Assembly: GCA_019118245.1 (NCBI GenBank)
Contig: DWZJ01000088.1
Location: 1 to 39,802 of the forward strand
Source: Candidatus Oscillibacter excrementigallinarum
Lineage (GTDB): Bacteria; Bacillota; Clostridia; Oscillospirales; Oscillospiraceae
Length of the DNA stretch: 39,802 bases
Direction: 5' to 3'
Part shown: in pieces, positions 10,952-26,674 of the stretch
Layout of the letters: the number at the start of each line of letters is the position of its first letter
How positions within the stretch are numbered: the first letter of the stretch is position 1
Notes under the pieces: model-generated
What the model was told of the DNA's origin: nothing
The model's input: the letters and a program-made list of their open reading frames with translations, nothing else
Database searches by the model: none
Translations under genes and position numbers: made by a program

Positions 10952-11589
10952 AAAGATGGACTTTCTGTGGCTTTCGTGTACCTCGAAAAGTGAATATCCG
11001 GCAGCGGATTCCCATCAGCTGGCAGTCCCCCGGAAGGGGAAAAGCGATGCGGCGGATGCGCGAAGACCACCTGTGCAGGCGGAAGTCTGCATCAACGACG
11101 GCAAGAAAGGTGCGGAGCGGGTCCATCTAGCCCAAAGCAGCTCTGGCAGGCTGTTTCGCCACGACCCTGTCAGCCTATAATGGTACACCTGCCCCGCGTA
11201 TGCGGGGCCAGCTCGGAGAGATCCTCGGAGGGGTGAGAGTCCCGTGGGCGTTGCCAAACGCCGATCCGTATGTCGCCCATCAGCTCGGGAAGTAGTGTCG
11301 AATAGAGCTGAATAACAAGAAATAGATTTTATAAGTGTCCGCCTCAGAGTATGGTTTCACAAGAGAAGCAGAAAAATTCAGAGGTCGGGACACGATTTGC
11401 GGGCCGGAGATTGCAAATAATCTCCGGCCCGTGATATATCCCATCTATAAAGCAAAATCGCTTTACAGCAAGTTCCCAGCTTGATTTCAGAAGCTACAGA
11501 GATCACAGAAAGAGCTTTTAAAGCAGACGTGGTGGCTGTATTTGTGGAATCAAGACGGTAGCAAACTATAAAAGAGAGGAGCAGACAAT
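10952..11589. other. gene-poor stretch with possible structured RNA
   Basis: No convincing gene; short open frames on both strands show no family features. TATAAT at 11176-11181 could start a transcript on +, although no good -35 precedes it. It is followed by several inverted repeats: CCCCGC/GCGGGG near 11195-11210, GGCGTT/AACGCC near 11250, and the strong hairpin at 11401-11430. The run between them (about 11210-11330) has the look of a folded RNA, but I cannot match it to a named class. Confidence 0.35.
11401..11430 (+). terminator. hairpin before the excisionase gene
   Basis: GGGCCGGAGATT, loop GCAAAT, AATCTCCGGCCC: a perfect 12-bp stem followed by GTGATATATC. No long T-run, so termination is possible but not certain. 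Confidence 0.5.
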
Positions 11590-11815: not shown

Positions 11816-13012
11816 ATGTCCAATCGGAAAAACCGTGGAGATGGCAGCATTCGAAAGCGTTCAGACGGTCGCTGGGAAGGCCGTTATACGGCAGGCCGGA
11901 ACGAGGAAACTGGGAAACTCATTTACAAAAGTGTTCTGGCAAGGACACAAGCCGAGTGTAAGCGGCAGCTTCGGGAAGCGGTCTGGAATCGGGAACATAA
12001 AGCAACGCCGCTGACCGGTTTGGCTCAGGAAACGCAAGGAACTTCTGCACCACAAATGAATTGTCAAGAGTACACAGTCGCGCAGTGGCTCCAGACCTGG
12101 TACGATCTCTATGCGAAACAAAATATTCGAGAAAGCACCCAAATACAATACAGCTACTTTATGAATCAACTGGTAATCCCGCAAATCGGTGAAGTTCCGT
12201 TAAGTCAACTGACCGGATTGCGTCTCCAGATTCTTTATCAAGATCTTCGCATCAATGGAAGGGTACATTCCCAGAAACGGGCGAGTTCCGGTCTGAGTCC
12301 TAAAACGGTCCGCAGTGTTCATATGTTTCTGCACGCCGCATTGGAACAGGCAGTTCGTGCCGGTATCATCGCTAAAAATCCGACGATGGAGTGCAAACCT
12401 CCAAAACTGGATCGGAAGGAAATGAAGGTCATCCAGCCGGAGCAGATCGGGGACTATCTACAGGCGGCAGCAGAGCGGAACGTGCTGCCATTGTTTTTTC
12501 TAGAGCTGACTACCGGCCTGCGTCGGGGCGAGCTACTGGCTCTGCTCTGGAGCGATCTGGACCCACAGAACAGAAGCGTCTCTGTGACGAAGTCTGTCAG
12601 CCGGCTGAATGGAAAACTGGTGGTGAGTCAGCCCAAGACCCAGCATTCCATCCGTACCCTGATCGTTCCCCAGCAGGCAGTGGATCTACTGATCCAGGAA
12701 CACAGTCTGCATCCGAATAATCCATATCTGTTCCCTTCCCCAACAACTGGAACCATGTACAGCCCTGAGACCGTGGCACGAATCCACAAGAGAATCCTTC
12801 GGGACGCTGGACTGGAGGACTGCCGTTTTCATGATCTGCGGCATACTTTTGCCACCGTGGCCCTCCAGAACGGTGTCGACATTAAGACGCTCTCCGGGAT
12901 GCTGGGCCACTACTCCTCCGGATTCACACTGGATACCTATACCCATGTGACGCGGAAAATGCAGGAGGAAGCGGCAGAGAAAATGGGGCAGTTCATGGAG
13001 ATGAAGCTGTGA
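11816..13012 (+). CDS. int: tyrosine recombinase/integrase
   Basis: A 398-residue phage/ICE-type tyrosine integrase. The N-terminal part (about 1-65, GDGSIRKRSDGRWEGRYTAG) is the arm-site-binding AP2-like domain; residues about 85-185 form the SAM-like core-binding domain; 200-390 the catalytic domain. Catalytic residues are present: Arg236 (TGLRRGELL), His339 and Arg342 (HDLRHTF), His365 (LGHYSSGF) and the nucleophile Tyr375 (LDTYTHVT). The gene appears intact. CAGGAGAT precedes ATG 11816. It ends 145 bp from the 3' end of tRNA-Pro, which makes that tRNA the likely attachment site. Repeats of AAAATGGGTCA follow the gene and may be integrase arm sites. Confidence 0.95.
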   Translation: MSNRKNRGDGSIRKRSDGRWEGRYTAGRNEETGKLIYKSVLARTQAECKRQLREAVWNREHKATPLTGLAQETQGTSAPQMNCQEYTVAQWLQTWYDLYAKQNIRESTQIQYSYFMNQLVIPQIGEVPLSQLTGLRLQILYQDLRINGRVHSQKRASSGLSPKTVRSVHMFLHAALEQAVRAGIIAKNPTMECKPPKLDRKEMKVIQPEQIGDYLQAAAERNVLPLFFLELTTGLRRGELLALLWSDLDPQNRSVSVTKSVSRLNGKLVVSQPKTQHSIRTLIVPQQAVDLLIQEHSLHPNNPYLFPSPTTGTMYSPETVARIHKRILRDAGLEDCRFHDLRHTFATVALQNGVDIKTLSGMLGHYSSGFTLDTYTHVTRKMQEEAAEKMGQFMEMKL

Positions 13013-16924: not shown

Positions 16925-18112
16925 TCAGGCCTCCACGGCGGCCTTCAGGGCCTCCACCCGGTCCGTCTTTTCCCAGGCCACGCCCAGGTCCTCCCGGCCC
17001 ATGTGGCCGTAGGCCGCCAGTCTGCGGTAGATGGGCTTGCGCAGGTCCAGATCCCGGATGATGGCCGTGGGCCGCAGGTCAAAGACCTTGCGGACGGCGG
17101 CCTCCAGCTTGCTGTCGTCCACGGTGCCGGTGCCGAAGGTGTCCACCAGCACGCTCACGGGCTGGGCCACGCCGATGGCGTAGGCCAGCTGCACCTGGCA
17201 GCGGCGGGCAAGGCCCGCAGCCACGATGTTCTTGGCCACGTAACGGGCGGCGTAGGCCGCGGAGCGGTCCACCTTGGTGGGATCCTTGCCGGAGAAGCAG
17301 CCGCCGCCGTGGGGGGCGCTGCCGCCGTAGGTGTCCACGATGATCTTCCGGCCGGTGAGACCGGAGTCCGCCGCGGGACCGCCCTTGACGAAGCGGCCGG
17401 TTGGGTTGACATAATACTTTGTGTTCTTGTCCAGCATCTCCGCGGGGATGACCGCCCGGACCACCTGCTCGATCATGTCCTTCCGGATCTGCTCCAGGGA
17501 GACGTCCGGGTCGTGCTGGGTGGAGATGACCACCGTGTCCACCCGGACGGGGCGGTCGTTCTCATCGTACTCCACCGTCACCTGGCTCTTACCGTCGGGC
17601 CGCATATAGGCCAGCTGGCCGCTCTTGCGGACCTCCGCCATGCGCTTGCACAGCTTCTGGGACAGGGACAGGGCCAGGGGCATCAGCTCCGGCGTCTCGT
17701 CGCAGGCGTAGCCGAACATCATGCCCTGGTCGCCGGCGCCGTTGCTCAGCTCGCTGTCGGTGCCCTCCTTGTTCTCCAGGGACTCGTCCACGCCCATGGC
17801 GATGTCGGCGGACTGCTCGTCGATGGAGGTGATGACGGCGCAGGTGTCGCAGTCGAAGCCGTACTTGCCCCGGTCATAGCCGATATCCCGGACCACCTCC
17901 CGGGCGATGCGGGCGATGTCCACATAGCAGCTGGTGGTGATCTCCCCCATCACGTGGATGAGGCCGGTGCAGGCCGTGGTCTCGCAGGCCACGCGGCCCT
18001 GGGGGTCCTTTTCCAGGATGGCGTCCAGCACGGCGTCGGAGATCTGGTCGCAGACTTTGTCAGGATGTCCCTCCGTCACGGACTCGGAGGTAAAGAGATA
18101 GTGTCTTGCCAT
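16925..18112 (-). CDS. metK: S-adenosylmethionine synthetase
   Basis: MetK, 395 residues, makes S-adenosylmethionine from methionine and ATP in the cytoplasm. Family motifs are intact: [20 protein letters not shown] at the N-terminus (ATP/methionine site, His16), [12 protein letters not shown], and the phosphate-binding [21 protein letters not shown] use ATG 18112 ([11 protein letters not shown]), the family's normal start, with AGAAAGGA in front; a longer frame upstream would run through the riboswitch terminator. Expression is controlled by the SAM-I riboswitch and terminator at 18158-18302, so high SAM should stop transcription before the gene. The product also feeds the radical SAM enzyme in this window. 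Confidence 0.98.
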
Positions 18113-18157
18113 GGTATCGTTCCTTTCTGATCGAAGCACGGACCCTATCAAGGGGCG

Positions 18158-18190
18158 AAAAAAATGTGCGTTTCGACGGCGAAACGCACA
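18158..18190 (-). terminator. riboswitch-controlled terminator of metK
   Basis: Minus strand TGTGCGTTTCG, loop CCGT, CGAAACGCACA followed by seven T: a perfect 11-bp intrinsic terminator between the SAM-I aptamer and metK. Confidence 0.93.
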
Positions 18191-18204
18191 AAAGGATCTG
18201 TTCA

Positions 18205-18302
18205 ATGCTCCTCATCTGTCGATCACCGCCGGATTTGGCACCTTGTCAGACACAGGTTGCCGTGGGTTCATCGGGCCGTTCCCTCCGCCACTCTTGATAA
18301 GG
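18205..18302 (-). promoter_or_regulatory. SAM-I (S-box) riboswitch
   Basis: The minus strand carries the S-box signature elements in order: CTTATCAAGAG, GTGGCGGAGGGA, GGCCCGATGAACCC, CGGCAACCT, GGTGCCAAATCC and the closing GATGAGGAG. It lies in the metK leader directly before an intrinsic terminator, the standard arrangement in which SAM binding favours termination. Boundaries are approximate. Confidence 0.95.
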
Positions 18303-18323
18303 CTTGATAAAATTGTCCCTATT

Positions 18324-18503: not shown

Positions 18504-19370
18504 TTGAGAAAACTGAACGCCGCGGTGGACCGGTTCGCATACAGCCATCCCCGCTTCGGCATTCCGAATCTGATGAAGTTCCTGGTGGGGATCATGGCCG
18601 TGGTGTTCGTGCTGGACCTCTTCTCCAATGGCTACGCCAGCTATATGCTGTACTTCGACGCGGACCTCGTCCTGCAGGGGGAGCTGTGGCGGCTGGTCAC
18701 CTGGATGTTCCTGCCCATCAGCGGCTCCCTGTTCTGGATCTTCATCAATCTTTCTTTCTATTACTTCATTGGCACCGCTCTTGAGGAGTACTGGGGCACC
18801 GCCAAATTCACCCTGTTCTATCTGGCCTGCGCGGTGTTGATGGTGGTGTTCGGCATGATCAGCACGCTGTGGAACCCGCTTCCCGTTGTCCACAGCGGGA
18901 TGCTGAACCGAATCCTCTTCCTGGCCTTTGCCACCCTGTACCCCGACGCGCTGATCCGCGTCTATCTGATCCTGCCCGTCAAGGCCAAGTGGCTGGCGGT
19001 GCTGTATGTGGTGCTGACCATCTACGACCTGCTCCGCTCCGGGCTGTGGGGCGCGCTGTTCACCCTGCCCCAGCTGCTGGCCGTGTGGCTGGTGTATCTG
19101 GTGTTCTTCTGGGACAAAATCGCGGACCTGCTGGCGGAGTTCGGCTTTGCCGTCCGGCATCAGAACTCCCAGCAGACCATCCACTTCAAGGCCGCGGTGA
19201 AGCAGCAGCGGAAGAAGGCCCAGCAGCAGGGCTACCGCCACAAGTGCGAGGTCTGCGGCCGCACGGACGCGGACTTCCCGGACCTGCAGTTCCGGTACTG
19301 CTCCAAGTGCGCGGGCTACCACTGCTTCTGCGAGGACCACATCTTCAACCACACCCACTTCACGTCATAA
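18504..19370 (+). CDS. rhomboid-like membrane protein with C-terminal Cys-rich domain, probably non-proteolytic
   Basis: A 288-residue protein. Residues about 25-205 carry some six membrane segments in the rhomboid/derlin pattern: QGELWRLVTWMFLP (58-71) is the conserved loop-1 WR motif and LEEYWGTAKFTLFYL (93-107) the segment after helix 2. The rhomboid GXSG serine motif is missing; only PVVHSGMLNRI stands in that region and no catalytic His is clear in the last helix, so it is probably a pseudoprotease or derlin-like factor. The cytoplasmic tail (220-288) is basic (KQQRKKAQQQGYRHK) and ends in a Cys/His cluster (Cys248, 251, 266, 269, 274, 276, His279, 283), likely a zinc ribbon. Start TTG 18504 is set by GGGAGG eight bases upstream; there is no suitable ATG. 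Function unknown. It has its own promoter and terminator. Confidence 0.75.
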   Translation: MRKLNAAVDRFAYSHPRFGIPNLMKFLVGIMAVVFVLDLFSNGYASYMLYFDADLVLQGELWRLVTWMFLPISGSLFWIFINLSFYYFIGTALEEYWGTAKFTLFYLACAVLMVVFGMISTLWNPLPVVHSGMLNRILFLAFATLYPDALIRVYLILPVKAKWLAVLYVVLTIYDLLRSGLWGALFTLPQLLAVWLVYLVFFWDKIADLLAEFGFAVRHQNSQQTIHFKAAVKQQRKKAQQQGYRHKCEVCGRTDADFPDLQFRYCSKCAGYHCFCEDHIFNHTHFTS

Positions 19371-19375
19371 ATCCA

Positions 19376-19412
19376 GCGCCTTCGCCCGAAAACGGGCGGA
19401 GGCGCTTTTTTT
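19376..19412 (+). terminator. terminator of the rhomboid-like gene
   Basis: GCGCCTTCGCCCG, loop AAAA, CGGGCGGAGGCGC (13 bp with one T-G pair) followed by seven T, five bases after the stop. Confidence 0.95.
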
Positions 19413-19455
19413 CGCGGGGCCGGAGATTTCTCTTTCTTCCTGTCTCCAAATGCGG

Positions 19456-19461
19456 TATACT
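19456..19461 (+). promoter_or_regulatory. -10 element before the large multidomain gene
   Basis: TATACT 38 bp before the start of the 1604-residue gene. The -35 region (TTTCTT at about 17 bp) is poor, so this is a weak or activated promoter at best. The gene follows a strong terminator, so a promoter is expected here. Confidence 0.4.
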
Positions 19462-19498
19462 GGAACAAACGACGAAAGACCGGAAGGGAGACGGTACC

Positions 19499-22400
19499 AT
19501 GGACCGACAGACGGGAGCGCCCCTGTACCTCCAGACAGCGGAGGCCTTTACGGAGCAGATCTTTCTCCAGCGGCTGAACATGCCCCGCGCCGACGCGGAG
19601 CGGCTCTTCGGCGGCGCGGACTGGCACCAGATCCTTCGGGATATCACGCCCATCCAGAGCCGGATCTCCTGCGCCGCCGCCCTGGCGGCCTTCCGCCCCC
19701 TGCTGGACCGGGTGGCCCCGGAGCCGGCGGAGGGGTGGCTGCCCTATGCCTATCAGGCGGCCCGCTCCCTGCTGTATCCGGCGGCGGACCCCGGCCACAC
19801 CGCCGTCCAGCGGGACGGCGCCCTGTGTCTCCTCCAGTTCCTCCAGGTGCTCTTTGACGCGGAGCGGACCTGCCTGCCCTTCGATTTCTGGCTGGACTTT
19901 GACTTCTGCACCGAGGAGGAGCTGCGCCGCAGCGGCGTGGCGGAGGAGTACCGCCTCTTCCGCCGCCGGTTCCGGGCGGAGCACATCTACGAGATGCTGC
20001 GGCTGAGCCGGGAGGTGACCCCCTTCCGCACCCTGGACCACATCGCCGGCGTCCACTATGTGGCCATGCGGGTGGCCCGGGCCTTTCACGCCTCCGGCGG
20101 GCTCATCGACCTGGGGCTGATCTCCGGCGCCGCCCTGGGCCACGACCTGGGCAAATTCGGCTGCAAGCCCGGGGAGCGGGTGCCCTATCTCCACTACTAC
20201 TACACCGACCAGTGGTTCACCCGCCGGGGGCTCACCGCCCTGGGCCACATCGCCGCCAACCACTCCGTCTGGGACCTGGAGATCGAGAACCTGTCCTCGG
20301 AGTCCCTGGCGCTGGTGTACGCGGACTTCCGGGTGAAGCAGACCTACGACGCCCAGCACCGGGAGATCCCCTGCCTCTACTCTTTGCAGGAGGCCTTTGA
20401 CGTCATCCTCGGCAAGCTGGACAATGTGGACGACGCCAAGCGGCTGCGGTATCAGTACGTCTACGCCAAGCTGCGGGACTTTGAGGACTATCTCATCTCC
20501 TACGGCGTGGACACCACCCTCCGCACCGCCGGCGGGCCTCCGGTGCCCATGAAGAACGCCGCCCTGCTGAACGCGCAGGAGGTGGTGGCCGCCCTGCGGC
20601 GCACCGCCGTGGATCACAACATCCGCCTGATGCACCGGCTGGGCCACGAGCAGCTCTTCGGCAACACCCTGGAGGCCGCCCGGGGCGAGAAGGACCCCGC
20701 CCGGCTCCAGGCCTACGTCTCCATCTTTGAGGAGTATTTCACCTACTGGAACGCCTCCCAGAAGCAGCAGACGCTGGACTTTCTCTACGAGCTGCTGCTG
20801 ATCCCCGACGGCGACATCCGCCGCCGGGCCGCCGCCCTCATCGGCCGCATCCTGGCGGCCTTTCGGCTGGGGTACCAGAAGGAACCCCCGGCGGACGCCC
20901 CGCCGGACCCGGAGGAGGACCTGCCCTTCCAGCTGTGGGCGGAGTACCTGGAGAAGCTCATCGACCCGGACCGGCGGCTGACGCCCCGGCAGATCAGCAT
21001 GATCCGCTATCAGGCCAAGACCGCCGTGGACGCCCTGCTGATGAACTGCTCCGACGCCGACGCCCCCCGCTTTGCCCGGGAGCTGTTCCGCCACTACCGC
21101 CGGCCGGAGCTGGTGGACGCGGACGCCGCCTTCGCCCTGCTGGACACGGTGCTGAGCCTGCCGCTGGGCCGGGTGTCGCCGGAGGACCTGCACCTGCTGA
21201 CCGGCTTTTCCGTCTGGTGGCTGGAGCGGGGCGGGCTGCCCCAGAAGGCCGCCGCCCTGCGGCTGTTCCGCCATCTGCTGACCATTCTGGACCCGGACGG
21301 GCGGGACGCCGGGGCCATCACCGCCGCCGTGGAAGCGGCGGACTGCCAGGACTGCACGCCGCTGCTGTTCCTCCAGGCCCGTCTGGGGGCCCAGCTGGGG
21401 CTGGATGTCTCCCGCCAGCGTGCCCGGCTGGATCAGCCGGAGGCGGTGAGCAACGTGTTCCTGGACAACCTGAAATCCGCCACCCCTTGGGTGCTGAAGG
21501 CCGTGGGCGTGGAGTACCTGCTGGACCAGGTGGAGCAGGGGGACCACGCCAACGTGCTCCACATCGCCACCCACTTCTCCAACCTGATGAAGGTCAGCGA
21601 GAACATCGTGGTCCGCCGGATGGCGGGCGCCTCCCTGCTGGCCGTGGCCCCGGTGCTGACGCCGGACCGCCGGAACGAGGTGGCGGTGGAGCTGTCCAAG
21701 GTCCTGGAGACGGGACAGACGGAGATCTCCCAGTACATCCCGGCATATCTGGGCCAGTTTGCCCTGTGGCTGACCCCCCGGGAGCTGGACGAGATCATCG
21801 ACCAGATGCAGCTGCTCCTCTCCTTCTCCAACACAGTCATCGTGGCCGCCGCCCTGGCCACCGTGGGCTCCATGCTGGAGCACTACGCCGTCTACGCCGG
21901 GCGATTCGGGGAGTCCCAGGAGGTCCTGCACAGCCGCTGGAAGCGGCTGGCGGGCCTGCTGCTGAAGGGGCTGGCCTCCTACCGCCAGAGCGTCCGGCAG
22001 GAGGCGCTGCAGATCCTGGGGGAGCATATCTTCGGCTCCCAGGTCCTCTCCTACGAGGGCAAGGCCGCCCTCTTCACCCTGATGGCCAAAAAGATCCTCT
22101 TTCTGCTGGGGGAGCAGCCGGAGCAGGAGCTGAGCTTCTTCTACACCGCCGCGGCCCTCTCCCACATCTACCGCTTCATCGTCTCCTACCGGATCGAGAG
22201 CGGGGACTTCCCCTTCTACACCCCGGCCAGGGTGGCCTTCTTCCCCGGCACCTTCGACCCCTTCTCCCTGAGCCACAAGGGCATCGTCCAGGAGATCCGG
22301 GACCTGGGGCTGGAGGTGTACCTGGCCATCGACGAGTTCTCCTGGTCCAAGAAGGCCCAGCCCTCTCTGGTGCGGCGTCAAATCGTCAGCATGTCCGTGG

Positions 22401-24313
22401 CGGACGAGTTCGACGTGTACCTCTTCCCCCACGACATCCCGGTGAACCTGGCCACCCCCGCGGACCTGGACCGGCTGCGGGCCGTCTTTGCCGGACGGGA
22501 GCTGTATCTGGCGGTGGGGTCCGACGTGGTGGCCAACGCCTCCTCCTACCGGGCGGCGCCGTCGGAGGGGTCTGTCCACTCCCTGAACCACATCGTCTTC
22601 CGCCGCTCCAGCAACGCGGAGGGCCATGAGATCGACGCGGACCTGAGCTGCATCACCGGCCGCGTCATCCAGCTGCAGCTGCCCACCCATCTGGAGGACA
22701 TCAGCTCCACCCGCATCCGGGAGAACATCGACCTGGGCCGGGACATCTCCAGCCTCATCGACCCGGTGGTGCAGGACTTCATCTACCGCAACAGCCTCTA
22801 CCTCCGGGAGCCCCAGTACAAGCAGATCCTGCGGGCGGGGGACCTGGAGTTCTCCCTGATCTCCCAGCCGGACCGGCGCCTGTGGGAGGAGCTGACGGAG
22901 GTGCTCCTCCAGGACCAGGGGCAGCCGCCGGAGATCGACCCCCGGGACGGCGTCTGCATCCTGCGGGACACCGGCCCCCGGCCCCGGGTGCTGGGCTTTC
23001 TGACCATGCGGACGGTGAACTCCGGCGGGCTGTATGAGGCCCTGGGGGACGCCGCCCTGGCGGACTACATCCGCAAGCACACGGCAGGCAGGATCCAGCT
23101 GCTCACCGGATTGTACATGGTCCGCAGCCCCGGCGGGAACTATGATGTGGGGCAGCTGCTGATGACCGAGGCTCTCTCCCGCTCCATGGGGGATGACTGC
23201 GGCTATGCCGTGTGGCACGCCCCTGCGTCCGACGCCGTGCTGGATCTGCTGGAGCGGCAGGGCTTCGTCCGGGCGGAGCTGCCCAGCGCCAAACCGCTGC
23301 TGCTGGTGGATATGCGATCCCCCTCCGTGCTGCTGCAGAACATCCCCACCACGCTGAAGGAGCCCTTTTCCTCGGACCCGGGGGTGCTGGCGGCGGTGCG
23401 GACCGCCCACTGCCGGATGCAGCGGGCGCTCACCGGGATGTATCCCGGGTCCCTGATCCTGTCGCTGAACGCGGAGGTCATCTACCACCGGCTGGTGCGG
23501 AAGATCGTGGATCTCAACGGCGTCAGCCCGGAGCCCACGGTGCCCCGGGTGCTGGGGCCCAAAATGTGCGTGCCCTTCGGCAAGATCCTCCGGGGCAACG
23601 CCATCCCCAACACCGTCACCAAGACCATCCACACCGACAAGGTGTTCGCCCAGGATCTGCGGTCCTTCACCATTGAGAACTTCCCCGGCTACGCCCCGCT
23701 GGAGAGCCAGATCCGCACCGTCCACTCCTTCCGCCGGCCGGTGATCCTGGTGGACGACCTGCTCCACTCCGGCAACCGCATCAACGCCCTGGACCCCCTG
23801 TTCCGGCAGGAGGGCGTGGTGATCGACCGGGTGCTGGTGGGCCTGCTGTCCGGCCGGGGCCGGGACCTGATGGCCGCCAAGGGCCGCAGCGTGGACTGCG
23901 TCTACTTCGTCCCCAACCTGCGGTCCTGGTTCGTGGAGTCCACCATGTACCCCTTCATCGGCGGTGACACCGTGGGCCACGACGAGCCCTCCGTCCCGGG
24001 CCTGACGCCGGCGGTGAACCTGATCCTGCCCTACGCGTTCCCCCGTTTTTACAAGGACTGCGGCCGGGAGGCGGTGTTCCGCTTCTCCCGCGCCTGCCTG
24101 GAAAACGCCCGGGACATCCTGCTGGCCCTGGAGACCACCTTCCGGGAGCGGTACGCCCGCAACCTGACCCTCTCCCGCCTCAGCGAGGCGGTGATCCTGC
24201 CCCTCTCCCCGGACAAGGGCAGCTGTCTGCACTACGACCCCAGCCTGCCCGCGTCCGTGTTTCTGCAGAACGACCTGCGGATGCTGCTGCGGATGCGGAA
24301 CGTGCTGGAATGA
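19499..24313 (+). CDS. 1604-residue HD / NadD-like nucleotidyltransferase / GNAT / PRTase fusion
   Basis: A very large cytoplasmic protein. Residues about 160-340: HD-type phosphohydrolase with His186, His215-Asp216 (GHDLGKFGCKPGE), His250, His255 and Asp276. About 360-900: helical HEAT-like repeats, without motifs. About 908-1110: NadD/cytidylyltransferase-type domain, FFPGTFDPFSLSHKG with His926, and ISSTRIR (1068-1074). About 1115-1290: GNAT-like fold (VLGFLTMRTV, GGNYDVGQLLMTEAL, LLERQGFVRAEL). About 1300-1560: phosphoribosyltransferase-like, with the PRPP-type loop VILVDDLLHSGNR (1415-1427). ATG 19499 is preceded by GGAAGGGAG; the frame is open far upstream only because of GC bias. Two small genes follow closely (46 bp, then 17 bp), forming an operon. 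Motifs of three nucleotide-handling domains are kept, so they may be active. I know such cytidyltransferase-like giants as unnamed proteins of related Clostridia; function is unknown. Confidence 0.85.
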   Translation: MDRQTGAPLYLQTAEAFTEQIFLQRLNMPRADAERLFGGADWHQILRDITPIQSRISCAAALAAFRPLLDRVAPEPAEGWLPYAYQAARSLLYPAADPGHTAVQRDGALCLLQFLQVLFDAERTCLPFDFWLDFDFCTEEELRRSGVAEEYRLFRRRFRAEHIYEMLRLSREVTPFRTLDHIAGVHYVAMRVARAFHASGGLIDLGLISGAALGHDLGKFGCKPGERVPYLHYYYTDQWFTRRGLTALGHIAANHSVWDLEIENLSSESLALVYADFRVKQTYDAQHREIPCLYSLQEAFDVILGKLDNVDDAKRLRYQYVYAKLRDFEDYLISYGVDTTLRTAGGPPVPMKNAALLNAQEVVAALRRTAVDHNIRLMHRLGHEQLFGNTLEAARGEKDPARLQAYVSIFEEYFTYWNASQKQQTLDFLYELLLIPDGDIRRRAAALIGRILAAFRLGYQKEPPADAPPDPEEDLPFQLWAEYLEKLIDPDRRLTPRQISMIRYQAKTAVDALLMNCSDADAPRFARELFRHYRRPELVDADAAFALLDTVLSLPLGRVSPEDLHLLTGFSVWWLERGGLPQKAAALRLFRHLLTILDPDGRDAGAITAAVEAADCQDCTPLLFLQARLGAQLGLDVSRQRARLDQPEAVSNVFLDNLKSATPWVLKAVGVEYLLDQVEQGDHANVLHIATHFSNLMKVSENIVVRRMAGASLLAVAPVLTPDRRNEVAVELSKVLETGQTEISQYIPAYLGQFALWLTPRELDEIIDQMQLLLSFSNTVIVAAALATVGSMLEHYAVYAGRFGESQEVLHSRWKRLAGLLLKGLASYRQSVRQEALQILGEHIFGSQVLSYEGKAALFTLMAKKILFLLGEQPEQELSFFYTAAALSHIYRFIVSYRIESGDFPFYTPARVAFFPGTFDPFSLSHKGIVQEIRDLGLEVYLAIDEFSWSKKAQPSLVRRQIVSMSVADEFDVYLFPHDIPVNLATPADLDRLRAVFAGRELYLAVGSDVVANASSYRAAPSEGSVHSLNHIVFRRSSNAEGHEIDADLSCITGRVIQLQLPTHLEDISSTRIRENIDLGRDISSLIDPVVQDFIYRNSLYLREPQYKQILRAGDLEFSLISQPDRRLWEELTEVLLQDQGQPPEIDPRDGVCILRDTGPRPRVLGFLTMRTVNSGGLYEALGDAALADYIRKHTAGRIQLLTGLYMVRSPGGNYDVGQLLMTEALSRSMGDDCGYAVWHAPASDAVLDLLERQGFVRAELPSAKPLLLVDMRSPSVLLQNIPTTLKEPFSSDPGVLAAVRTAHCRMQRALTGMYPGSLILSLNAEVIYHRLVRKIVDLNGVSPEPTVPRVLGPKMCVPFGKILRGNAIPNTVTKTIHTDKVFAQDLRSFTIENFPGYAPLESQIRTVHSFRRPVILVDDLLHSGNRINALDPLFRQEGVVIDRVLVGLLSGRGRDLMAAKGRSVDCVYFVPNLRSWFVESTMYPFIGGDTVGHDEPSVPGLTPAVNLILPYAFPRFYKDCGREAVFRFSRACLENARDILLALETTFRERYARNLTLSRLSEAVILPLSPDKGSCLHYDPSLPASVFLQNDLRMLLRMRNVLE

Positions 24314-24359
24314 CGGGAGGGCGCCCGGCGCCGCGCCCGGATGAAAGGAGCTCCCTCTG

Positions 24360-25610
24360 ATGTATTACTACCGCTATGAGGAGACGGTGTTCGCCTCCCT
24401 GCTGCCGGACCTGCCCCTGGAGACGGCGGACCGCCCCGCGGCGGGGACCCCCGGCCTCTTCCTCATTGACCGGGATCCGGTCTCCGGCCGGTCGTCCTTC
24501 TGCGTCTCCGACGCCCGGCAGCTCACCGCCAGGACGGAGGACGTCTCCTGGCTGGACCCCTCCCGGATGGGCGTGCCCATCCCCGCCCTGCCCAAGCGCG
24601 TCCAGCACACCATCGACGCCCGCCTGCTGCGGGCCGTCAACATCCGCCATCCCCGCTGGCGGGACTTCGCCCGGCTGCCGGACAAGCAGCCGTCGGGCCG
24701 GCGGCGGGTCAACCTGCTGGCGGTGGGCGACGTGGGGGGCACCCTGCTGACGGCCCTGAAGCTGCTGGGAGGCGACTGCATCGAGCGCATCGGCATCTGC
24801 GACCTGAACCAGAAGGCCGTCTCCCGCTGGGCGGCGGAGATGGGGCAGGTGTCCTGGCCCTGGGACTATGACGCCCTGCCGGAGGTGGAGCCGGTGTCAG
24901 ACGAGGACCTGTTCCGCTGCGACGTGTTCCTCTTTGCCGCCACCCGGGGCGTGCCGCCGGTGGGGGGCGGCGTCCGGGACGTGCGGATGGCCCAGTTCAG
25001 CGCCAACCGCCCCCTGGTGGAGCAGTATGCCCGCCAGGCCCGGCAGGCAGGATTCCGGGGGCTCTTCATCGTGCTGTCGGACCCGGTGGACCCCCTGTGC
25101 AAGGCGGCGTATCTGGCCTCCAACCAGGGGGAGGACGGCCAGTGGGACGGGCTGGGGCTTCGGGCGGAGCAGATCCAGGGCTTCGGCCTGGGGGTAATGA
25201 ACGCCCGGGCGGCCTATTACGCCAAGCAGGACCCCCGGTTCCGCAGCTTCCTCACCGACGGCCGCAGCTACGGCCCCCACGGCCAGGGGCTGGTGATCGC
25301 CAACTCCCTCACCCACTATGACGACGGCCTGTCCCGGGAGCTGACGGACCTGGTGACCACCGCCAACCTGCGGATCCGGGAGCTGGGGTTCAAGCCCTAT
25401 GTGGCCCCCGCCATCTCCTCCGGCGCCATGCAGCTGCTGCTGACGCTGCGGCGGAGCTGGCACTGCAGCTCCGTGGCCGTGGGAGACGTGTGGTTCGGCG
25501 TCCGCAACCGGCTGACCGCCGCCGGGCTGGAGATCGAGACCGCCTCCCTGCCCGCGCCGCTGTTCGACCGGCTGCGGGAGACCCAGACCCTGCTGCGGGA
25601 GATCATCTGA
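24360..25610 (+). CDS. divergent lactate/malate dehydrogenase-fold protein
   Basis: A 416-residue protein with a roughly 110-residue N-terminal extension of unknown fold and then a Rossmann dehydrogenase like LDH/MDH: VNLLAVGDVGGTLLTALKL is the NAD loop (Gly123-Gly127), Asp148 in IGICDLNQKA ends strand 2 and should favour NAD over NADP, and LFIVLSDPVDPLCKAAY matches the family's VSNPVD region with Asp in place of Asn. Arg283 (GVMNARAAY) and His307 (GPHGQG) stand where the substrate Arg and catalytic His of LDH/MDH lie. It is therefore probably an active 2-hydroxyacid-type dehydrogenase on an unknown substrate. AAAGGAG precedes ATG 24360. It sits between the giant nucleotidyltransferase fusion and a flavodoxin-like reductase in one operon. 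Too divergent to call ldh or mdh. Confidence 0.7.
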   Translation: MYYYRYEETVFASLLPDLPLETADRPAAGTPGLFLIDRDPVSGRSSFCVSDARQLTARTEDVSWLDPSRMGVPIPALPKRVQHTIDARLLRAVNIRHPRWRDFARLPDKQPSGRRRVNLLAVGDVGGTLLTALKLLGGDCIERIGICDLNQKAVSRWAAEMGQVSWPWDYDALPEVEPVSDEDLFRCDVFLFAATRGVPPVGGGVRDVRMAQFSANRPLVEQYARQARQAGFRGLFIVLSDPVDPLCKAAYLASNQGEDGQWDGLGLRAEQIQGFGLGVMNARAAYYAKQDPRFRSFLTDGRSYGPHGQGLVIANSLTHYDDGLSRELTDLVTTANLRIRELGFKPYVAPAISSGAMQLLLTLRRSWHCSSVAVGDVWFGVRNRLTAAGLEIETASLPAPLFDRLRETQTLLREII

Positions 25611-25627
25611 TGAAGGAGAGGACCGCC

Positions 25628-26674
25628 ATGGCTGAACGACTCACCGTGCTGCTCCCCGGCGGGGCGGCCTCGCCCCGGTGCGCCCAGGTGCTGGAGGCCG
25701 CCCTGGCGGGGCGGCGGGCGGAGGTCCTGCACCGGCTGGAAGGGCCCCTCCACGGGCGGCGGCTGCTGTTCGCCGTCTCCCTGGACGAGAGCGGCGTGGA
25801 CCACGGCTTTTCCGACCTGCTGGCGTTTCTCCGGACCCATCCCGGGTGCCTGGACGGCTGCGTGGGGGGCGTGCTGGTGGACGCCCCCGGGGACCTGTAC
25901 ACCAAGGCGGCGGGCCGGGACCTGGTGCTGGCGGCGGACCTGGCCGGGTGCGCCTTTGTGGGCCGCCCCCTGGTGGAGGGCACTGGCGGCCTGCGGAACT
26001 TCACCGTCCAGGCCCGGAACGCCGGCTGTTCGCTGGAGGAAGCCTACCGCCTGGCGGCGGCGGACCTGGCGGCCCGGGTGGCCGCCTTCTCCCCGCCCCG
26101 GCTGGCGCGGCCGAAGCTGCTGGTGCTCCATGCCTCCAGCCGGGAGACCTCCAACACCCTGGCCCTGTGGGGGCTGGTGCGGGACCACCTGGGGGACCGG
26201 TGCGAGATCCGGGAGATCGGCCTGCGGAACGGCACCCTGGAGGACTGCGCCGGGTGCCCCTACACCGCCTGCCTCCACTACGGGGAGCGGGGCGGGTGCT
26301 TCTACGGCGGCGTCATGGTCCAGGAGGTGTACCCCGCCGTCCGGGAGGCGGACGCGGTGGTGCTGCTGTGCCCCAACTACAACGACGCCCTGGCCGCCAA
26401 CCTGACGGCGGCCATCAACCGGCTGACGGCCCTGTACCGCACCACCTCCTTCGCGGACAAGGCGGTATTCGCCGTCGTGGTGTCCGGCTACTCCGGCGGG
26501 GACATCGTGGCCAGCCAGGTGGCGGGGGCCATGGGGATGAACAAGGGCTTCTGGCTGCCGGCCCGCTTCTGTATGCTGGAGACCGCCAACGACAAGGGCG
26601 AGGCCCTGGCCCTGCCGGGGATCAGGCAGCGGGCGGAACGGTTTGCGGAGAATATGTTATGTCAACTATCGTGA
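25628..26674 (+). CDS. flavodoxin-fold NAD(P)H-dependent FMN reductase, two-domain
   Basis: A 348-residue protein. The C-terminal half (about 160-348) is a flavodoxin-like FMN reductase: LLVLHASSRETSNTLAL is the FMN phosphate loop (168-176), LCPNYNDALAANLTAAINRL follows the usual strand 3 region, and VVVSGYSGGDIVASQV the second flavin loop. Cys207, 210, 215 and 224 (DCAGCPYTACLHYGERGGCF) recall the cysteine motif of iron-sulfur flavoproteins. The N-terminal 150 residues look like a second, eroded alpha/beta domain of the same type (GGVLVDAPGDLYTKAAGRDL). I chose ATG 25628 with AAGGAGAGG before it; an ATG at 25610 overlapping the previous stop is also possible. It ends the operon and may supply electrons to, or regenerate a cofactor for, the two other proteins. 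Confidence 0.75.
   Translation: MAERLTVLLPGGAASPRCAQVLEAALAGRRAEVLHRLEGPLHGRRLLFAVSLDESGVDHGFSDLLAFLRTHPGCLDGCVGGVLVDAPGDLYTKAAGRDLVLAADLAGCAFVGRPLVEGTGGLRNFTVQARNAGCSLEEAYRLAAADLAARVAAFSPPRLARPKLLVLHASSRETSNTLALWGLVRDHLGDRCEIREIGLRNGTLEDCAGCPYTACLHYGERGGCFYGGVMVQEVYPAVREADAVVLLCPNYNDALAANLTAAINRLTALYRTTSFADKAVFAVVVSGYSGGDIVASQVAGAMGMNKGFWLPARFCMLETANDKGEALALPGIRQRAERFAENMLCQLS

Follow-up and report, generated by a model that had tools for sequence, protein, structure and literature searches.

The stretch analysed here, which we call the window, is the whole 39,802-nucleotide contig DWZJ01000088.1 (C83, positions 1–39802) of the 2.4-Mb, 108-contig draft genome of Candidatus Oscillibacter excrementigallinarum. 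An operon on its + strand, at 19499–26674, holds three genes whose products we call P1, P2 and P3. An earlier note on this DNA had described the three genes and a fused P1; that observation is confirmed, and the linkage of the genes and most of the domain assignments hold under the checks given below. The proteins and the parts of P1 lie as follows.

19499–24313, + strand: P1, an HD / HEAT / NadD-NMNAT / GNAT-fold / phosphoribosyltransferase (PRTase)-like protein of 1604 residues (open reading frame and translation)
19886–20578, + strand: HD domain region of P1, residues 130–360, with putative ligands H181, H215, D216, H232, H255 and D276
20573–22201, + strand: HEAT-type helical repeat scaffold of P1, residues 359–901, predicted by an AlphaFold2 model
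22223–22810, + strand: NadD/NMNAT domain of P1, residues 909–1104, with GTFDPFxLSH, ISSTRIR, W949 and Y1017
22841–23323, + strand: predicted GNAT-fold domain of P1, residues 1115–1275, coenzyme A (CoA) loop not conserved
23486–23998, + strand: PRTase-like domain of P1, about residues 1330–1500 (PF00156 in some members; strand and helix order of the model)
23741–23779, + strand: loop of P1 resembling a phosphoribosyl pyrophosphate (PRPP) loop, VILVDDLLHSGNR, residues 1415–1427
24360–25610, + strand: P2, lactate/malate dehydrogenase (LDH/MDH)-like, 416 residues, about 110 of them an additional N-terminal stretch
25628–26674, + strand: P3, flavin mononucleotide (FMN) reductase-type, 348 residues, ATG start at 25628

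P1 is conserved as a single chain. Eighty named loci align with it over almost its full length, apart from a few truncated by contig ends, 7216 database proteins of similar length match it, and the fusion stays intact in relatives at 34–37% identity. Among the matches listed in a contig scan, 566 of 591 pattern-matched genome-contig stretches encode a P1 relative, a count in which both search patterns fall within one domain and one gene may appear twice. Source databases name such relatives nicotinate-nicotinamide nucleotide adenylyltransferase or cytidyltransferase-related domain protein, names that describe one of the five parts of P1; when the window's P1 was scanned with Pfam, NCBIfam and PADLOC models, the sole curated cut-off exceeded was that of PF01467, again for one part. 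Among the papers listed by our literature searches on P1, the trio and neighbouring topics, none was seen to describe P1 or the trio, although other papers may exist.

Residue conservation was counted in 52 sequences, made up of the window's P1, L024–L026 and 48 named loci out of the 80; alignments A2–A5 contain 50 of these (L054 and L055 excluded), and A6 and A7 contain 37 and 31 sequences, respectively. The NadD-type nucleotidyltransferase of the earlier note stands. A structure model and fold search predict an NMNAT fold, the adenylyltransferase motifs ([H/T]xGH-type and ISSTxxR) are present with PF01467 above its cut-off, and G917, F919, D920, H926, S1069, S1070, I1073 and R1074 are each found in all 52 sequences, as is the block D945-E-F-S-W-S-K951 that includes W949, with Y1017 in 51. 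The best match of this domain among PDB sequences is VPA0413 (PDB 3h05), a NadD-like protein of function not known that has the W-x-K loop in common with P1 and, unlike P1, is a chain of 177 residues. W949 aligns with a Trp of VPA0413. In E. faecium NadD, the residue aligned with Y1017 is a Trp, which stacks on the nicotinate ring.

The N-terminal HD region carries the complete dinuclear-type motif H...HD...H...H...D; in PMC8177086, a six-residue HD motif marks a dinuclear site, with YqeK as the example. All six ligands (H181, H215, D216, H232, H255 and D276) are present in each of the 52 sequences, and the site appears to be of the two-metal type, with metal binding predicted from these residues. 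Of the residues first proposed, H215, D216 and D276 are among these ligands; H186 is kept in 49 of the 52 sequences. At E values of at most 1, the HD region matches NF045665 in 50 of 50 members, TIGR00295 in 42 and HDIG in 29; in the window's own P1 the NF045665 and TIGR00295 scores are far under cut-off. PF01966 matches the region in three of eight members, and the profile built from the HD region of P1 reached HD proteins among PDB sequences at E 0.043 to 0.25 only. Positions 202–311 of NF045665, the DVU_1551 family of NTP transferases, give the best family match in all 50 members; unlike that family, whose model has 359 positions and no further domains, P1 scores 22.4 bits against a cut-off of 315, and the nucleotidyltransferase half of the DVU_1551 family presumably has a different fold from that of P1. 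In the fold searches for the HD domain, HEAT proteins took up all the matches listed. The stretch of about 540 residues that follows, noted earlier as helical repeats, is indeed predicted to form HEAT-type repeats, with a mean predicted local distance difference test score of 91.2 in the AlphaFold2 model, a HEAT family match in four of eight members and HEAT proteins as the fold-search matches listed.

The two C-terminal domains were only partly as first described. Structure modelling and fold search predict a GNAT fold for residues 1115–1275, in keeping with the GNAT-like domain that had been proposed, but its acyl-CoA loop is gone. In GNAT enzymes this loop reads R/Q-x-x-G-x-G/A; Gly1218 is found in only 12 of 52 sequences and the consensus there is DxxQLLLTE. 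Because the CoA-binding motif is lost, ordinary acetylation by P1 is doubtful and probably absent. In the domain recognized by its PRPP loop, C1357, V1358, P1359, G1361, N1371-T-V-T1374, D1419 and G1454 are found in all 52 sequences, D1420, H1423 and R1427 in 51 each and G1425 in 46, and PF00156 is matched in 18 of 50 members. A type I PRTase has a PRPP loop with two acidic residues followed by a T/S-G phosphate loop, and D1419 and D1420 would form the acidic pair; the family matches behind the assignment are weak, and the loop is unusual. For the long model no PRTase fold was among the 50 matches listed by each of two aligners, a result with which such a fold is still compatible. When the C-terminal model was compared with viral folds, an Hpt came at rank 11 of the list with E 6.1e-4, the matched region being unspecified. 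The top entry of that list by E value is A0A6J5SUH2, an uncharacterised 464-residue phage protein (E 1.8e-6, 497 alignment columns, root-mean-square deviation 20.6, TM 0.24), possibly a multidomain match with shared folds. A search for stand-alone relatives of the PRTase part gave 380 matches; the 120 listed look, from their length and the size of the short contigs that bear them alone, like fragments of the P1 family.

The two partners belong to redox-enzyme families, as the earlier note had recognized. By sequence profile rather than by fold, P2 is a member of the LDH/MDH family, with the Rossmann NAD (nicotinamide adenine dinucleotide)-binding domain of that family: its profile matches L-lactate dehydrogenase 4m1q at E 7.7e-7, and 30 of 37 P2 members match TIGR01771 at E values of at most 0.01 (best 8.4e-9), with P2 itself under that cut-off and, at 17.5 bits, also under the Pfam cut-off of 27 for Ldh_1_N. 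Like L-lactate dehydrogenase (TIGR01771 / PF00056), P2 conserves the GDVG loop, D148, R209, N216, R283 and H307, of which R209, N216, R283 and H307 fit LDH active-site residues when mapped by eye; unlike it, P2 has an N-terminal extension and scores below the family cut-offs. P3 scores 70.7 bits against PF03358 (FMN_red), well over the gathering cut-off of 24, and bears four cysteines, C208, C211, C216 and C225 (C-x2-C-x4-C-x8-C). These do not vary among the 31 A7 sequences, a pattern suggestive of an iron-sulfur cluster. In both respects P3 is like FMN reductases and iron-sulfur flavoprotein (Isf); unlike Isf, it has about 160 more N-terminal residues, and these are without a family match. 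Its cysteine spacing presumably also differs from the compact Isf motif.

Co-occurrence, gene order and joint presence in distant lineages show that the trio is one conserved unit. We searched 120 genomes of the family (match threshold E 0.001 for P1) and found 18 matches to P1, 10 of full length (at least 1119 bits) and eight at no more than 23 bits; 10 matches to P2, all of at least 274 bits; and 42 matches to P3, 10 at no less than 321 bits and the rest at no more than 36. The three sets of 10 genomes are identical and include the window's own. In some of the 10 the trio lies on different contigs, through contig breaks or true separation. Adjacency was counted in the 73 of 80 named loci with at least 1500 nt downstream, leaving out seven: P2 follows in 65, within 200 nt in 54, and P3 lies downstream in 56 of the 67 loci having at least 3000 nt. 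For the eight loci without an adjacent P2, seven genomes carry P2 elsewhere with P3 beside it, and for the 11 without P3, 10 genomes carry P3 elsewhere. Acetoanaerobium noterae preserves the order P1-P2-P3, at 34, 43 and 33% identity, with opposite-strand genes on both sides. Pairwise distances for P1–P2, P1–P3 and P2–P3 correlate at 0.87, 0.90 and 0.77 across 36 loci, species kinship uncontrolled. The clusters of the trio span 77, 53 and 40 of 84 sources and an antisense cluster 23; beyond the trio and antisense frames, the next neighbouring family reaches only 10 of the 84.

P1 is patchily distributed. It occurs in 17 of 25 same-genus genomes, the window's own included, one copy being cut by a contig end; it was not found in the other eight, four of them at least 95% complete, nor, save one NadD-only match, in any of 15 genomes from the order's other families, and it is present in four of 299 genomes across the phylum, again counting its own. 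Hosts among the 80 loci include Oscillibacter, Dysosmobacter, Pseudoflavonifractor, Flintibacter, Lawsonibacter, Fournierella, Yanshouia, Clostridium fessum, Anaerovorax odorimutans and rumen Flexilinea/Anaerolineaceae. In many anaerobes of the gut and in a sludge Clostridium, this 1604-residue protein stays intact and is followed by two partner genes. In a quick, midpoint-rooted tree, the P1 proteins of three rumen Chloroflexota (L118, L123 and L130, all metagenome assemblies) group with SH-aLRT 100 within a branch of Oscillospiraceae and other Clostridia. Since they are nested in Clostridia and each locus also has P2 and P3, joint transfer between phyla is likely. A phage origin was rejected, as the only relative on a viral contig (L209, one of 90 pattern matches) is a 160-residue CoaD-like protein outside the family and 50,697 phage records held no P1 match. 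A plasmid origin was rejected as well: the lone match, NZ_CP154629.1 (L210) from Acetoanaerobium noterae, is 2.6 Mb long and probably a chromosome. This record is labelled plasmid pTPELB2 and has just four annotated features.

These results lead us to a tentative proposal, which we regard as possible and somewhat short of probable, that P1 makes a pyridine-type dinucleotide coenzyme and that P2 and P3 either complete or use the product. The PRTase-like domain would put ribose-5-phosphate from PRPP on a base to give a mononucleotide, the NMNAT domain would couple this to AMP to give the dinucleotide, and the HD domain would hydrolyse wrong or surplus product; we infer the order of these reactions, the base, the dinucleotide product and the binding of metal. 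The HEAT repeats may be a frame that holds the domains of P1, and perhaps P2 and P3, while the GNAT-fold domain, because its CoA loop is gone, may be structural or bind another ligand. P2 and P3, the latter with its probable iron-sulfur cluster, would carry out redox steps that finish or use the coenzyme. Of what the earlier note suggested, the linkage, the key HD and NMNAT residues and, as predictions, the NMNAT and GNAT folds are borne out; a dedicated system that would build, salvage or sense a nucleotide-type cofactor or messenger is put forward here conditionally. If P1 does make a nucleotide coenzyme, common gut bacteria would have an added pathway in their redox metabolism, and it would be a natural case of dinucleotide synthesis and proofreading within a single polypeptide. 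A bolder form, in which P1 builds and HD-edits an NAD-like dinucleotide with a non-nicotinamide base that P2 and P3 use as a dedicated coenzyme, we consider unlikely; if true, gut Clostridia and rumen Chloroflexota would own an electron carrier apart from NAD.

The individual domains of P1 are of known kinds, and the closest studied case is the NadD-YqeK (NMNAT-HD) fusion. Like that fusion (PRK07152 type; JCVISYN3A_0380; the host's own), P1 joins an NMNAT domain to an HD domain with six ligands on a single polypeptide, and PMC9426524 reports that in JCVI-Syn3A an HD domain fused to NadD proofreads NAD synthesis. Unlike it, P1 has its HD domain at the N terminus, about 540 residues of HEAT repeats in between, and added GNAT-fold and PRTase-like domains; on the fusion's model (PRK07152, NF005519; NadD then YqeK, about 361 residues) it reaches 30.1 bits, the cut-off being 315. 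As an idea, the proposal is comparable to the nickel-pincer nucleotide pathway (LarB/C/E), in which a nicotinate-derived nucleotide becomes a dedicated coenzyme of hydroxyacid enzymes. The Lar family enzymes themselves presumably differ from P1–P3.

Several observations weigh against our proposal. NadD scores of P1 lie far below the NCBIfam cut-offs (NF000840, 37.1 bits against 150; TIGR00482, 35.5 against 112.45), and the resemblance between the HD profile and that of YqeK (TIGR00488) extends across just 43 columns (hhalign P 0.0075; YqeK set of 13 of 19 loci selected by a motif). In the PRTase-like domain, residue 1424 is Ser or Thr in only 15 of 52 sequences, PF00156 is matched weakly (best E 0.0016) and not in the window's P1, an orotate PRTase ranks third among PDB sequences (E 2.1, alignment confined to the loop), after a pair of designed repeat proteins (E 0.25 and 0.62), and when profiles were compared with those of PRTases from the genome and its relatives, the loop alone aligned, one comparison set having included a 512-residue mis-called frame. 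Type I PRTases have Ser or Thr at the site matching 1424. P2 retains H307 and, unlike L-lactate dehydrogenase, has an invariant Met280 (mapped by eye) at the position of the catalytic-dyad residue, which we take to be Asp in LDH. Finally, one genome (G457; locus L060) carries P1 without both P2 and P3.

Among other explanations, P1 could serve the ordinary NAD pool by salvage or repair: it would turn base and PRPP into nicotinate adenine dinucleotide or NAD, edit this product itself with its HD domain and hand it to two NAD-using enzymes, with no new chemistry. The NMNAT fold and motifs and the reported proofreading by an HD-NadD fusion fit this, and, with an over-cut-off NadC in just one (G014) of the 25 same-genus genomes, own included, NAD appears to be supplied by salvage. 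However, the host already has a nicotinate phosphoribosyltransferase (NAPRT; NF006695, 690 bits against a cut-off of 469) and a 396-residue NadD-YqeK fusion (L001, 742–1932, − strand; TIGR00482, 132.8 over 112.45; TIGR00488, 130.6 over 70.15), so that P1 seems to apply this chemistry to something else. Moreover, P1 seems dispensable for NAD, since eight same-genus genomes lack a detected copy, and it carries a loop motif like that of type I PRTases, whereas nicotinate PRTases are of another type. We consider this explanation doubtful. Two simpler versions were rejected: P1 as the housekeeping NadD, given the host's separate NadD-YqeK and NAPRT, and P1 as a response to loss of NadC, given that same-genus genomes, whether they carry P1 or not, are without an over-cut-off NadC, apart from G014, which has both.

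Alternatively, P1 may be a signalling or sensing protein whose NMNAT domain makes and whose HD domain breaks a dinucleotide messenger, with a HEAT frame on which the PRTase-like and GNAT folds sense ligands. According to PMC8177086, diadenosine tetraphosphate (Ap4A) and cyclic dinucleotides are substrates of two-metal HD enzymes, and the loss of the CoA loop and the changes in the PRPP loop fit binding rather than catalysis; but the strict partners P2 and P3 come from redox-enzyme families, not regulators, and D1419, D1420, H1423 and R1427 are nearly invariant, which makes this improbable in our judgement. A role in an anti-phage or conflict system, with nucleotides as what is depleted or altered, would suit the patchy distribution, the likely transfer to Chloroflexota and a large multidomain protein, yet no PADLOC model matches P1, P2 or P3 at E 0.01, the phage records held no match, no further neighbour family exceeds 10 of the 84 sources and the catalytic residues are strictly conserved; we rejected a defence system as an identity and regard it as very improbable. 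A chimeric reading frame or misassembly, for which one could cite the long antisense frame at 19316–24232 as showing that GC-rich frames stay open here, has next to no chance, being already refuted by the near end-to-end conservation of P1 across loci and similar-length proteins. The remaining probability lies with schemes not yet conceived.

The frame antisense to P1 (19316–24232, − strand) is open for 1638 residues, and GC-rich relatives also have long antisense frames, which disturbed simple gene calling. Between the upstream gene and P1 lies one further feature, recognized by pattern match only.

19375–19406, + strand: terminator-like hairpin, 14 pairs of which 11 are GC, with a T tail

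The next open reading frame 3′ of P3 (26717–27451) is on the opposite strand. Riboswitch control of the operon was rejected: at gathering scores, the Rfam matches in the window are a tRNA, a SAM riboswitch and a pemK motif, all of which lie outside the operon and not directly in front of it. The riboswitch (RF00162, 77.5 bits, 18209–18303, − strand) lies immediately upstream of an open reading frame at 16925–18205 (− strand) that we take to resemble S-adenosylmethionine synthetase, and the pemK RNA motif (RF02913, 56.4 bits) is at 11177–11247 (+ strand), about 570 bases 5′ of a 398-residue open reading frame at 11816–13012.

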